Origin: Candidatus Eremiobacterota bacterium | Lineage (GTDB): Bacteria > Vulcanimicrobiota > Vulcanimicrobiia > Vulcanimicrobiales > Vulcanimicrobiaceae | Reading direction: 5' to 3' | DNA: 43,805 nt | Assembly: GCA_019235885.1 (NCBI GenBank) | Contig: JAFAKB010000069.1 | Coordinates: forward strand, 1-43,805 | Part shown: piece after piece, positions 1,922-17,839 of the stretch | How the letters are laid out: every line of letters begins with the position of its first letter | How positions within the stretch are numbered: the first letter of the stretch is position 1 | The notes under the pieces: model-generated | Database searches by the model: none | Seen by the model: the letters and a program-made list of their open reading frames with translations, nothing else | What the model was told of the DNA's origin: nothing | Translations under genes and position numbers: made by a program

Positions 1922-2476
1922 TTAGTGCGGCTTTCTCCGCACCCCGCTGATCGTTCCGGACGTGGTGGTCACGGTGACGTTCACGCCGACCGAGCCGCCG
2001 TGGTTGTCGCTTACGACGATGGTGCACGACCCCGCGGCGACCGCGGTGACCGTGAACGTCGCGCTGGGTCCGGTCCCGGATGCGGGAGAGAACGTCGCGA
2101 TCCCGCCGCAGTTGCCGCTGCTGGCGTTGAGCGGACCGGTGTAGTTGTTCTCGGTGACCGTGAACTGCGCCGACGAGCCCGCGACCGTCAGCGAGATCGA
2201 GACCGCGCTCCCGCCGATGGGGGCCGGAACCGGCGTCGGCGTCGGAGTCGGCGTCGGCGTCGGCGTCGGTGTCGGCGTGGGAGTCGGTGTCGGGGTGGGC
2301 GTCGGCGTCGGGGCGGCCGGAGTCGGCGTCGGCGTCGGCACTGCCGTGCCGGTGTTGAACGGCGGCGGGTTCGTGCTGCTCCCGCCGCAGCCGACGACGA
2401 GCGCGGCCGCTGCGACCATCAGCGCCGTCGCGAGCACGCTGCGATCGCGCACGTGTCTATCTCTGTTCGCGCGCAT
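1922..2476 (-). CDS. lipoprotein with Pro-Thr repeat stalk and Ig-like domain
   Basis: A 184-residue exported lipoprotein. The N-terminus is basic, then a hydrophobic stretch ends in the lipobox LVVGC, so the mature protein should be anchored by its cysteine. An extended PTPTPT tract (about residues 46-82) forms a stalk. The remaining ~100 residues are rich in Thr/Ser/Val/Gly with two cysteines (GNCGG and GSCTI), like a small bacterial Ig-like or BIG fold (inference). The start is one base after the stop of the upstream propeller gene, so the two are an operon and probably translationally coupled. The function is unknown; a surface or cell-wall structural role is plausible. Confidence 0.75.
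   Translation of the reverse strand: MRANRDRHVRDRSVLATALMVAAAALVVGCGGSSTNPPPFNTGTAVPTPTPTPAAPTPTPTPTPTPTPTPTPTPTPTPTPTPVPAPIGGSAVSISLTVAGSSAQFTVTENNYTGPLNASSGNCGGIATFSPASGTGPSATFTVTAVAAGSCTIVVSDNHGGSVGVNVTVTTTSGTISGVRRKPH
2230..2339 (-). repeat. hexanucleotide tandem repeat coding Pro-Thr
   Basis: Units of gtcggc/gtcggt/gtcggg (plus strand) repeat about 18 times with one interruption and encode the PT stalk of the lipoprotein. The 6-base unit keeps the frame whatever the copy number. Confidence 0.8.
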
Positions 2477-14564: not shown

Positions 14565-15809
14565 GTGAACCGCAAGGTTTTTGTTGCGGCCGGCGCCGCC
14601 GCGCTGGCCTTCCCGCGCGCCGCGCGCGCGACCGAACCGGCGATCCGCCCGCCCGCGCCGCTGCGCGAAGCGCCCGTGGTGACGCTCGGCGACGACGTCT
14701 TCGTGCGCGACGCGTGGCGCGATTTGCGTGGGCGCACGATTGGGATCGTGACCAATCCCAGCGGCGTGCTCTCGACCGGCGAGTCGGTGGTCGACGCGGT
14801 GCACCGCAACGGCCAGATCGCAGTGAAAGCGCTGTTCGGGCCCGAGCACGGCATTCGCGGCGTGGTGGGAGCGGGCGAGACCGTCGGCTCGTCGACCGAC
14901 GAGAAGACCGGCTTGCCGGTCTACAGCCTGTACGGCGCGACGCGCCACCCGACGGCGGCGATGCTCGATGGGATCGACGTGCTCGTGTTCGACATTCAGG
15001 ACGTCGGCGCGCGGCCGTACACCTACGTCTCGACGATGGCGTACGTGATGGAGTCGGCCGCGCATTACGGCAAGGAAGTGTGGGTCCTCGACCGGCCCAA
15101 CCCGGTCGGCGGCATGCTGCTCGACGGCCCGGTGCTGAATCCGAAGTTCAAGTCGTTCATCGGGCTCTATCCGATCCCGGAACGGCACGGCATGACGGTC
15201 GGCGAGCTGGCGCGGCTGTTCAACGAGCAATTCGGAATCGGCTGCAAGCTGCGCGTGATCCCGATGCAAGGCTGGAAGCGCGAGATGGTCTGGGCCGACA
15301 CGGGGCTGAAGTGGGTCCCGACCTCGCCGAACATGCCGTACGCGCGCACGACGCTGGTCTATCTCGCCACCGGCTTGGTCGACGAAGCCGGCGTGAACAA
15401 CGGCGTCGGCACCGACAAGCCGTTCGAGTACGCCGGCGGCTACGGCTACGATCCCGCCGCCTTCCGCGACGCCCTTACCGCGCGCAAAATCCCCGGCGTG
15501 GAGTTCGAGCCCGCCGACTGGGTCCCGGCACGCGGCTTCTGGAAAGACAAAACGCTGCGCGGCGTCTCGATCAATGTCACCGATCCGCGCGTGTTTCCCA
15601 GCGTACGAACCGCCGTAGAATTCCTCGCCGCCGCTCGAGCGCAAGGCAAATACCACGTCGCCCACGAGCAAATCATGGACCGCGACTGGGGCACCGACAC
15701 CGTCCGCCTCGCCCTGAACGACGGCACGTCACCCGACACCATCGTCGCATCCTGGCAGCCCGGCCTGCGCGCGTTCAGAACGCTGCGCGCGAAGTACCTG
15801 CTGTATTGA
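14565..15809 (+). CDS. namZ: NamZ-like DUF1343 exo-muramidase
   Basis: A 414-residue exported protein of the DUF1343 family, whose characterised member NamZ removes N-acetylmuramic acid from the non-reducing end of peptidoglycan fragments. An N-terminal hydrophobic signal (VFVAAGAAALAFPRAARA) precedes the domain. Family motifs are GIVTNPSGV, FGPEHGIRGV, VYSLYGATRHPT, VFDIQDVGARPYTY, LDRPNPVGG and WVPTSPNMP. It starts with GTG 2 bases after mqnD. Its last 57 bases recur in diverged form 1 kb downstream, beyond the abi gene. Confidence 0.88.
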   Translation: MNRKVFVAAGAAALAFPRAARATEPAIRPPAPLREAPVVTLGDDVFVRDAWRDLRGRTIGIVTNPSGVLSTGESVVDAVHRNGQIAVKALFGPEHGIRGVVGAGETVGSSTDEKTGLPVYSLYGATRHPTAAMLDGIDVLVFDIQDVGARPYTYVSTMAYVMESAAHYGKEVWVLDRPNPVGGMLLDGPVLNPKFKSFIGLYPIPERHGMTVGELARLFNEQFGIGCKLRVIPMQGWKREMVWADTGLKWVPTSPNMPYARTTLVYLATGLVDEAGVNNGVGTDKPFEYAGGYGYDPAAFRDALTARKIPGVEFEPADWVPARGFWKDKTLRGVSINVTDPRVFPSVRTAVEFLAAARAQGKYHVAHEQIMDRDWGTDTVRLALNDGTSPDTIVASWQPGLRAFRTLRAKYLLY

Positions 15810-15810
15810 G
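15754..15810. repeat. direct repeat A (namZ 3' end)
   Basis: This 57-base segment at the end of namZ matches 16767-16823 at 46 of 57 positions in an ungapped hand alignment. The first 15 bases are identical. It marks the left border of the abi-containing segment. Confidence 0.75.
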
Positions 15811-15895
15811 CCGCAGAGCGTCGGCGAGCGTACTGAGCTGGGGGCACGAATCTAACTTGCAGCAGAGTAGATTTCTACAATCCCTGACGCTCGCG

Positions 15896-16570
15896 TCACC
15901 AACGCACCTTTGGAGAAAACGGTCCGTTCGCAATACACTCGTTCACGCGGGAATGGTGATCAAGCCACGGGACAATGGTAGGCGCTACCTGACGGACGAC
16001 CCATAGTATCGAGGCATATTGCTCGCGAAGATCGTAAGAAAAGATCGGCTCGTGGTGCGCTACCCGATTGCGAAATTTGAGCAGCTGATCTATTCGCCCC
16101 GCCACAGCGCTTCGCTTGACGTGCGGCCGAAAAGCCCGCGACAGCGCCGGCCTCCATAACGTGTGAACGTAGCTTCCACCTGGCCCAGGCCTTAAGAGGT
16201 TCGCCCAGAAGCCGAATGACAACTCTGCGATCACTCTTGGCCGAATAATGGCCTTGCTACGTGTTGCGATCTTGTTCTTTTTATCCTGAACGCGCGAAGC
16301 AAAAGCCGGGTCGATTGCTAAGAACGCCGGGTCGTCATACCACGGAGCTGTGAACGCACGGGCTAGCTCGTGATCGAGACCATTTCGCAGCACGACTTCC
16401 ATGACGCCGATCGGCCCGAAAAACGACGCCGCCGTTGCAGCGTTCCAACAATACAAATCGATTGCGCGCTCCAGATCGCCACCGACAGCCTGACGATATA
16501 CCGCCAGACGGTCGACGCTTATCGTCGCCTCAATGTCCGCTCGCAATTGATTAGAGGAAACGAAGAACAC
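15896..16570 (-). CDS. Abi-family (AbiF-like) HEPN protein
   Basis: A 224-residue cytoplasmic protein of the Abi_2/Abi-like family, whose members act in phage abortive infection as HEPN ribonucleases. The hallmark is LLKFRNRVAHHEPIF, which contains the HEPN R-x4-6-H motif (Arg167, His172). A second RNxxxH pattern, RNGLDH (Arg62-His67), lies in the N-terminal half, reminiscent of paired HEPN motifs. No signal peptide or membrane segment is seen. The GTG at 16570 lacks a Shine-Dalgarno sequence; a TTG eight codons in is an alternative. Base composition is visibly less GC-rich than its neighbours, and repeats flank it, so it was probably acquired. A strong promoter and small RNA start 13 bases upstream on the opposite strand. 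Exact subfamily is inferred. Confidence 0.8.
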   Translation of the reverse strand: MFFVSSNQLRADIEATISVDRLAVYRQAVGGDLERAIDLYCWNAATAASFFGPIGVMEVVLRNGLDHELARAFTAPWYDDPAFLAIDPAFASRVQDKKNKIATRSKAIIRPRVIAELSFGFWANLLRPGPGGSYVHTLWRPALSRAFRPHVKRSAVAGRIDQLLKFRNRVAHHEPIFSYDLREQYASILWVVRQVAPTIVPWLDHHSRVNECIANGPFSPKVRW

Positions 16571-16582
16571 GACACCAACTAC

Positions 16583-16611
16583 TTGACAAGACGAAGGCTC
16601 GTCCGTAAAAT
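16583..16611 (+). promoter_or_regulatory. near-consensus sigma-70 type promoter for a small RNA
   Basis: TTGACA (16583-16588), a 17-base spacer and TAAAAT (16606-16611) make an almost perfect housekeeping promoter, unusual in this GC-rich window. Transcription should start near 16618, away from the abi gene. No protein-coding gene lies downstream on this strand before the convergent membrane gene. Confidence 0.8.
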
Positions 16612-16617
16612 CCCTAT

Positions 16618-16672
16618 GTGTGCCCCTGGAGCCACTGCCGAAAGGTACGCGTCAGGGGCCTATATTTTTATA
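16618..16672 (+). ncRNA. candidate structured small RNA beside the abi gene
   Basis: From the predicted start site the transcript would be about 55 bases. GCCCCTG (16622-16628) pairs with CAGGGGC (16653-16659). Inside it, TGCC-GAAA-GGTA (16636-16647) makes a short hairpin with a GNRA tetraloop, separated from the outer stem by an asymmetric internal loop. The outer stem is followed by CTATATTTTTAT, a terminator-like U-tract. I know from memory that AbiF-family proteins have been reported next to structured RNAs that control them; whether this RNA belongs to that class is inference. It could also act as antisense to the abi leader, since the genes diverge across it. On the minus strand only a weak promoter (TTTCGA, 17 bases, TATAGG at 16659-16664) is visible for abi. 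Confidence 0.6.
16653..16672 (+). terminator. U-tract end of the small RNA
   Basis: The 3' arm of the 7-base-pair GC stem runs straight into CTATATTTTTAT, as in intrinsic terminators. The downstream 100 bases to 16766 carry no gene on either strand that I can recognise. Confidence 0.55.
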
Positions 16673-16766
16673 GACGCCTACTCGAAAGCTCGCCGGCGTT
16701 CCTCATGCGACGGCCCAAGTGCGTCGTAACTTGGACGTTTTGGCATAGTTCACGCCAGCTATTCGC

Positions 16767-16823
16767 GGCAGCCCGGCCTGCACGCGTTCAGGGCGCTGCG
16801 TTCGAGATGCCTTCTGTACCGAG
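16767..16823. repeat. direct repeat B (diverged namZ 3' end)
   Basis: This is the partner of the repeat at 15754-15810. In the namZ frame it still reads RQPGLHAFRALRSRCLLYR against WQPGLRAFRTLRAKYLLY with the stop, and the stop codon has become CGA. Part of it now encodes, on the opposite strand, the C-terminus (ISNAAP) of the membrane gene ending at 16788. Confidence 0.75.
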
Positions 16824-17315
16824 CGCGGGCGCCGCCGGCCGCTTCCGCAGCACGATGATCGTGGTCAGCACGACGTCGATGAGGAGTACGATCGCGCCGA
16901 GCGGCATTGATGTGTCGCGCAAGTCTCCAGCCGAGCGGGACGGCGGATACTCGTTGAACTCACCGGTTCTGACGAGCTGCGCGTTGTGCGGGGACAGCGC
17001 GGCTGGAGCAAACGTAGCGAAGGCAAATGCCGCCGTAGCGGAGATCAGGAGCGCCGTCGTTCGGGTCGCCTGACGAATCCGCTCGCGGCCTGCACCGAGC
17101 GCCGCCAGCGCGCTGGTCAGCACGAACGCCCCGATCACCGCGGCCGCATAGAGCGCGCCGCCCCCGAATCCCTCGAGCGGCGCGCGCCCCCCCATTCCGC
17201 TCTCCGCGAAGCTCAGCGCCGTCGGCATCAAATAGTCGAGCGCCTCGTACGCGACGACGAACTTCAGCCCGACGCCGAGCGCGAGCGCGAGCACGAGTGC
17301 GACGAGCCGCATCAT
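16788..17315 (-). CDS. four-helix membrane protein of unknown function
   Basis: A 175-residue integral membrane protein with four hydrophobic segments: residues ~3-25, 55-77, 88-110 and 143-162, the last followed by LRKRPA. I do not recognise a family. The ATG at 17315 overlaps the stop of the upstream PilZ gene (ATGA), and GGGGGG lies just before it; the adjacent second ATG is equally possible. The 3' end runs into the diverged namZ repeat, so its last residues may have been rewritten by that rearrangement. Confidence 0.65.
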   Translation of the reverse strand: MMRLVALVLALALGVGLKFVVAYEALDYLMPTALSFAESGMGGRAPLEGFGGGALYAAAVIGAFVLTSALAALGAGRERIRQATRTTALLISATAAFAFATFAPAALSPHNAQLVRTGEFNEYPPSRSAGDLRDTSMPLGAIVLLIDVVLTTIIVLRKRPAAPALGTEGISNAAP

Positions 17316-17839
17316 TCCCCCCGCATGTGGGCGCGTTCGCGGAGCTGGCGGATTTGCCAGACGTGGATGAAGCGCTGGATCTCCTCTTGAGTGCGCTCGT
17401 CGATGTCGACGAACTGCAGGCCGTGGGCGAGCTTGCGGCGGTGGAGGTTGAGGAACGCGATCACCGACTTGGCGTGCACGGACATCGGGCGGAACGGGTC
17501 GGGCGGGACCATCACCTTGCGCTTCGTTTTTCCGCGCGGCGTGTTGGTGAAGATTTCCTTTTCGACGTGGACGCTTTGGATCAGATCGTTCGGGAGCGTG
17601 AAGCGCAGCTCGACGACCGTCTCGTTCGGCAAATCCTCGTCGCCGATCAGGCGCAGGCCCCCGGCCGAAAGGTCGTTGGCGACGGCGGTGCGGCTGCCGG
17701 TGCGGCCCTCGACCGCGTAGACGACCGGGAACTCGACCGAGGCGCGATAGCTCTGCCGCTGGGTCTCCGTGATCGTCGCGCGGACCGGCGCCCGGCGCTT
17801 GACCGGTTTGCGCTTCGTCCACTTCTGCCAGAAGAACAC
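17312..17839 (-). CDS. PilZ domain protein (c-di-GMP receptor)
   Basis: A protein of about 175 residues with a PilZ domain. The c-di-GMP binding pattern is intact: RQSYR (RxxxR) followed about 30 residues later by NDLSAGGLRL (D/NxSxxG). The C-terminal part (FLNLHRRKLAHGLQFVDIDERTQEEIQRFIHVWQ, shown only as its key motif GLQFVDID) is typical of such receptors. The start is uncertain: the GTG at 17839 is the last in-frame start before the domain, and earlier ones lie in the divergent glcD gene. It is coupled to the membrane gene, which may be its effector partner (inference). Confidence 0.8.
   Translation of the reverse strand: MFFWQKWTKRKPVKRRAPVRATITETQRQSYRASVEFPVVYAVEGRTGSRTAVANDLSAGGLRLIGDEDLPNETVVELRFTLPNDLIQSVHVEKEIFTNTPRGKTKRKVMVPPDPFRPMSVHAKSVIAFLNLHRRKLAHGLQFVDIDERTQEEIQRFIHVWQIRQLRERAHMRGE

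Follow-up and report, generated by a model that had tools for sequence, protein, structure and literature searches.

A conserved small RNA divergent from a compact AbiF-like HEPN protein gene, a predicted RNA-controlled toxin module

A 43,805-nt stretch of contig JAFAKB010000069.1 of a Candidatus Eremiobacterota bacterium (GenBank assembly GCA_019235885.1), referred to in its whole length as the window, carries an abi gene for an AbiF-like HEPN protein and, divergent from it, a gene for a small RNA. The small RNA is a real, conserved structured RNA of the + strand and is tied to the abi gene across phyla. The locus is best explained as a two-part, toxin-antitoxin-like abortive-infection module, in which an AbiF-type RNase would be neutralised by the separately transcribed RNA (probability about 0.77). 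We explain the locus as an RNA-controlled toxin because it is homologous to AbiF systems that have been studied by experiment (PMC12373285; PMC12737573), and from these we infer transcription, RNA binding, inhibition, toxicity, phage defence and phage-triggered release at the window locus.

The structured RNA and its conservation

The RNA was preceded by a sigma-70 type promoter on the + strand (16583..16611), assigned from its consensus score and its position in relatives. The TTGACA box (16583–16588) and the TAAAAT box (16606–16611) were separated by a 17-nt spacer, as the preliminary description of this DNA had reported. They matched the consensus at 11 of 12 positions, and no second promoter-like site was present in the 1 kb scanned. 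The promoter began thirteen bases from the GTG start of the abi gene and pointed away from it, and the RNA started seven bases past the −10 box. The RNA, a predicted antitoxin (16618..16669, +), was delimited by its fold, by covariance models and by covariation. It was composed of a GC-rich outer stem (16622–16629/16652–16659), a short, asymmetrically bulged inner stem (16631–16632/16649–16650), an unpaired CAC (16633–16635), which was CUC in most relatives, and an apical hairpin with a GAAA loop (16636–16639/16644–16647), followed by a T run (16665–16669) encoding the U tract. Folding of positions 16618–16664 gave −24.5 kcal/mol with a z score of −3.7, and 0 shuffles were equally low; positions 16616–16674 gave a z score of −4.3. 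These values, together with the out-of-sample model match described below, supported the outer stem, hairpin and U tract recognised in the preliminary description, and the predicted transcript of about 47–52 nt was close to its estimate of ~55 bases. Its further statement, that no open reading frame explains the promoter, held in substance and not to the letter. An open frame does run on the + strand from GTG 16618 to 17073, and a coding reading of it was rejected because the homologous RNAs (44–68 nt across the family) differed by single-base insertions or deletions and frequently contained stops.

In the first eight homologous loci of the window's order, found by protein, a divergent stem-loop RNA was seen by eye, and in most of them a clear TTGACA-type promoter preceded it. 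When GTDB genomes were scanned with the protein alignment, 80 related loci were recovered, of which 79 were distinct (L082 duplicates L005), from Pseudomonadota, Actinomycetota, Cyanobacteriota, Acidobacteriota, Binatota and Armatimonadota. Two covariance models were used, R1 from 28 RNAs of other organisms with no sequence of the window's order, and R2 from an alignment of 61 RNA sequences. R1 recovered the window RNA (16618–16663) out of sample with a score of 16.8 bits and an E value of 0.0095 for 78 kb, and matched nothing else in the 43.8 kb window; R2 scored the RNA at 18.8 bits. By R1 and R2, 63 of the 79 distinct relatives carried the RNA, a few of them weakly (E about 0.03–0.04, for example L037, L049 and L091). 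These carriers came from Pseudomonadota, Actinomycetota, Acidobacteriota, Cyanobacteriota and Binatota, and the RNA lay upstream of the abi gene on the opposite strand in 63/63.

The proposed fold was strongly maintained. In the R1 alignment, 99.2% of cells were paired and double-sided changes occurred in 8 of 13 pairs; the corresponding values for R2 were 98.0% and 9 of 13. In each case 0 of 500 shuffles were as high, and slid controls were far lower. The seven RNAs of the window's own order showed 95.3% pairing and a covariation score exceeding all shuffles. The expectation that the protein has an RNA partner, which covaries beside its homologues, was therefore borne out across phyla. When read on the divergent strand, the alignment contained 40 G-U pairs against 7 A-C mismatches, and a reading of the other strand would turn these G-U pairs into broken ones; since G-U pairs outnumber A-C mismatches and the promoter and U tract sit on the same strand, the divergent strand is the RNA strand. 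The promoter geometry was likewise conserved, with at least 9 of 12 consensus matches at 29 of 59 loci compared with 2.4 expected, and the −10 box mostly ended 6–7 nt before the RNA.

These features bear on two other explanations of the element. It might be a mere (bidirectional) transcription terminator or attenuator with no functional RNA, as its GC-rich hairpin and the T run behind it would suggest. A terminator needs neither a conserved interior nor a bulge, a promoter or second hairpins, yet the family has conserved internal bases (CUC-UGC...GCA), an internal bulge and a promoter at a fixed distance, and several relatives have separate extra terminator hairpins past the RNA; this explanation is highly improbable. 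The divergent RNA might instead act in a type I-like manner, binding no protein but regulating in cis, by antisense pairing or transcriptional interference, a toxin mRNA whose 5' end would extend through the RNA gene. The promoter of the RNA lies against the toxin start or overlaps it, so that any toxin mRNA initiated farther upstream would have a sequence complementary to the RNA. Antisense pairing requires no fold, however, whereas the stems covary and the G-U pairs favour one strand; the conserved bases are located in the bulge and hairpin, and the RNAs of known AbiF systems bind their protein in trans (PMC12373285). A purely antisense or interfering role is thus considered unlikely.

A search of 40 whole genomes with R2 gave 52 matches at E ≤ 0.001, most of which were the query loci, and nearly all others lay beside further abi paralogues. 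Among the secondary loci fetched, ten adjoined another abi homologue, the RNA of L157 adjoined none and that of L162 adjoined a fragment. Since the genome matches nearly all adjoin abi homologues, the RNA is almost never seen without an abi gene. In the window's own genome, contig C85 (L153) contained two identical RNA copies (2087–2139 and 2862–2914), 775 bp apart, with no intact abi gene, and the second copy adjoined a seemingly truncated abi N-terminus (a weak match). The RNA may have been retained there after toxin loss, because its copies stand without an intact abi gene. At L078, the abi gene was broken by a stop, and a family RNA lay on each side of it, at 1408–1453 (−) and 2231–2276 (+).

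The AbiF-like protein and comparison with known systems

The predicted toxin is an Abi_2/AbiF-like HEPN RNase of 224 aa encoded on the − strand (15896..16570), assigned from PADLOC, Pfam, an AlphaFold2 (AF2) model and Foldseek. Its start codon was GTG 16570, with TTG 16546 as a possible alternative. The HEPN catalytic motif RNRVAHH (Arg167, Asn168 and His172; 16052..16072, −) was located from alignments A2 and A8 in the context RNRVAHHEP, the preliminary description having likewise noted an HEPN motif in the protein, and residues 167–172 (RNRVAH) satisfied the pattern R-N/H/D-x3-H. The motif was also present in L017, L019 and L022, relatives that were recovered without pattern selection. The toxicity of AbiFCd, from Clostridioides difficile, depends on the R and H of the corresponding motif (PMC12373285).

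The window protein matched the PADLOC model PD-T4-5 with an E value of 7.5e-14 and 49.7 bits, in a partial alignment covering profile positions 13–205 of 309, and AbiD only weakly (E 3.8e-4). PD-T4-5 was the best PADLOC model for the whole clade (47–60 bits), whereas AbiFCd scored 316 bits with AbiD. Judged from sequence and model, the clade forms a compact branch of its own within the AbiF/Abi_2 family. The Pfam Abi_2 profile gave E 0.0018 and 19.1 bits, under the cut-off of 25.6, compared with 20–33 bits for the relatives and 166 for AbiFCd. The AF2 model had a predicted local distance difference test (pLDDT) score of 93.9, and Foldseek matched it to PbAbiF bound to its non-coding RNA (ncRNA; PDB code 8VZ6) with a probability of 1.00, template modelling (TM) scores of 0.62 and 0.49, and 12% identity. 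This was the sole confident match to a PDB structure, and it upheld the relation to AbiF proposed earlier. The clade profile could be aligned co-linearly with AbiFCd over a stretch that takes in the HEPN motif (E 0.0012). A search of a viral structure library with the protein model gave no confident match, and a PDB sequence search returned only designed ankyrin proteins, which were dismissed as spurious repeat similarity.

In the C. difficile system, AbiFCd is toxic and the RNA RCd22 neutralises it by direct binding; this RNA precedes abiF and shares its transcript (PMC12373285). According to a review, AbiFr is the antitoxin RNA of AbiF, 8VZ6 shows the two in complex, and inhibition is due to the bulge nucleotides of AbiFr (PMC12737573). 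The window module has the AbiF fold, the HEPN motif and a small structured RNA upstream in common with both PbAbiF:ncRNA and AbiFCd-RCd22. However, AbiF has ~290–300 aa compared with 224 aa, and RCd22 is co-oriented and co-transcribed with its gene (both on the + strand of phage phiC2), whereas the window-type RNA is divergent and has its own promoter. The consensus of the Rfam abiF RNA (RF03085) on phiC2 is CCCGCC-A-AGC-CUCU...GCU-CAAAUC-GGCGGG, and that of the window RNA family is CCCCGG-nnC-CGC-CUC-UGC...GCA-U-GCG-C-CCGGGG. An outer stem, a short (3-bp) inner stem and the CUCU are common to the two, but the window family adds an apical hairpin, with a large internal loop on the 5' side. The RF03085 model, proposed in the preliminary description as a way to recognise the RNA, found nothing at E ≤ 10 in the window region or in six relatives; in 149 genomes of the phylum it gave no match, but the control genomes were silent too. 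Conversely, R2 scored the abiF RNA at 1.2 bits and did not detect it, so that recognition fails in both directions. Rfam searches at gathering and at permissive thresholds gave neither abiF nor another relevant family at the scanned loci, and matches to PyrR201, sR32, PAGEV and DUF805b were dismissed as chance. The anticipated departure from described examples was thus found both in the divergent layout and in the absence of an RF03085 match. The RNA is new relative to Rfam and belongs to a known kind of system; Zilberzwige-Tal et al. 2025, whose work on AbiF and its RNA includes a 'diverse RNA' covariance model (PMC12804078), may already have listed RNAs of this family.

PD-T4-5, an Abi system from an E. 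coli plasmid (Vassallo et al. 2022), provides abortive defence and has been described as an AbiF/D relative (PMC9519451). It is the best PADLOC model for the clade, but the match to its 309-position profile is partial, and the clade is taken as nearest to PD-T4-5 and not equated with it. A keyword search of the main text of PMC9519451 yielded no RNA component for PD-T4-5. The type III toxin-antitoxin systems ToxIN, TenpIN and CptIN share an RNA antitoxin that binds an RNase toxin, as proposed for the window module, but have an unrelated toxin fold. Their antitoxins are tandem repeats in one operon with the toxin (PMC12373285), whereas the window RNA is single, non-repeated and on the opposite strand.

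Cas13 (type VI CRISPR) is also an HEPN RNase with an RNA partner, and the window RNA might, instead of inhibiting the protein, be a cofactor that it requires or activate it in a guide-like way. AbiF has been proposed as the ancestor of Cas13, and the CRISPR RNA of Cas13e both inhibits and guides (PMC12737573). The window module differs in having one HEPN domain, no guide part and no array; its RNA of ~47–52 nt lacks a variable spacer-like part, the stretch from the stem to the U tract is short, and no CRISPR-like repeat array was seen beside it. An activating role is therefore very unlikely.

RNA types of the relatives and genomic setting

Among the 16 relatives without the window RNA type, 12 had TTGAC on the divergent strand near the start, compared with about 2.6 expected, and several showed other compact hairpin RNAs; usually a different small RNA occupied the position of the window type. 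The same layout with further RNA types occurred on plasmids of E. coli, Pantoea, P. aeruginosa, Zymomonas, Shewanella, Vibrio, Pseudomonas cannabina, Xanthomonas and Agrobacterium, and the window RNA type itself occurred on plasmids of Bosea and Rhizobium leguminosarum and on another Agrobacterium plasmid. When RNA types were placed on the protein tree (the window type assigned by covariance model and the minor types by eye), 5 changes were required, which is the minimum possible, compared with a shuffled mean of 14.8. The RNA type follows the protein tree and co-diversifies with it.

A second divergent RNA type, roughly CCnCGGGaCTTGTTGGC-loop-GCCTCCCCCnGAGGACA with a terminator, was observed upstream of abi at L116, L118, L120, L122 and L071, on plasmids of E. 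coli, P. aeruginosa, Pantoea and Zymomonas and also in P. congelans. It had no Rfam match in the plasmid loci scanned, and the main text of the Zymomonas transcription start site paper does not name the pZM36 RNA. Further divergent types, each in one protein clade, were observed at L070/L080/L085/L100, L057/L094/L099, L119/L169 and L167/L168. The Abi family protein at L166 1462–2538 (Agrobacterium pTiLMG305) was annotated as longer than its relatives (358 aa), and its gene was followed by a phospholipase D-like gene.

Comparison with congeners placed the module in a 1.5-kb insertion (15806..17311) between namZ and pilZ; in the congeners G098, G100 and G093, which lack it, the namZ–pilZ gap was 5 to about 120 bp. 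By repeat comparison, the abi–RNA part sits between two imperfect 58-nt direct repeats of the namZ 3' end. The first copy is the 3' end of namZ itself (15754..15811, +), and the second (16767..16824, +; 81% identical) lies beyond the RNA as a second namZ end. In congener G096, a SIR2-like defence gene (L109 2743–3942; PADLOC SIR2, E 9.7e-17) occupied the same site, which suggests a small hot spot for defence genes at the namZ–pilZ junction. Downstream of pilZ, within the inserted stretch, lay a frame for a possible small membrane protein (16788–17316, −), with no Pfam match and no DNA match at the corresponding site in congeners.

Proposed mechanism and its meaning

In the proposed mechanism, the toxin would be a compact HEPN protein of AbiF fold, expected to be a dimer like the toxic HEPN form of the characterised AbiF systems (PMC12373285), that cuts single-stranded RNA. 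The antitoxin RNA of ~50 nt would be supplied in excess from its own strong divergent promoter, fold into a stem, an internal bulge and a hairpin, bind the toxin and block the HEPN site. By analogy with the AbiFr bulge, the candidate for the inhibitory element is the conserved CUC bulge, which reads CAC in the window. Phage infection would free the toxin, for example by halting host transcription while the short-lived RNA decays. As the promoter of the RNA reaches up to or into the start of the toxin gene, synthesis of the RNA probably holds down toxin transcription as well.

Several points weigh against this explanation. For the clade, toxicity, binding and expression are extrapolated from characterised relatives, and the mode of binding may differ from that of the known AbiF RNA because the window RNA does not have the architecture of RF03085. 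The resemblance of the protein sequence to canonical AbiF is weak (hhalign probability 19%; Pfam at or under the cut-off for most), and the window RNA is a divergent member of its family (16.8–18.8 bits). The 80 loci were selected by pattern through the HEPN motif, whose presence in that set is partly a consequence of the search. About 16 of the 79 relatives lack the window RNA type, and linkage alone would also correlate RNA type with protein clade.

The chances are about even that AbiF-type RNases have a second, large lineage to which the window locus belongs. This lineage would extend over at least five phyla and many plasmids, among them Agrobacterium pTi and an E. coli ColRNAI-type plasmid, and be run by divergent, separately transcribed RNAs of several distinct folds, each tied to one protein clade. 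If this is true, AbiF-like toxins have built their RNA partner anew on repeated occasions, and the leader-type abiF RNA represents a single branch. Such a sister lineage, with a minimal protein of ~220 aa and a minimal RNA of ~50 nt that has its own promoter and several folds, would supply natural variants for studying how an HEPN toxin is bound by an RNA antitoxin. It would also inform how an AbiF-type RNA could turn into a guide, since Cas13 is proposed to have started from AbiF and its RNA. The window RNA adds a family absent from Rfam and points to a hidden RNA part at loci annotated merely as Abi family or hypothetical protein, among them relatives of a proven phage-defence gene, which may get cloned without their RNA.
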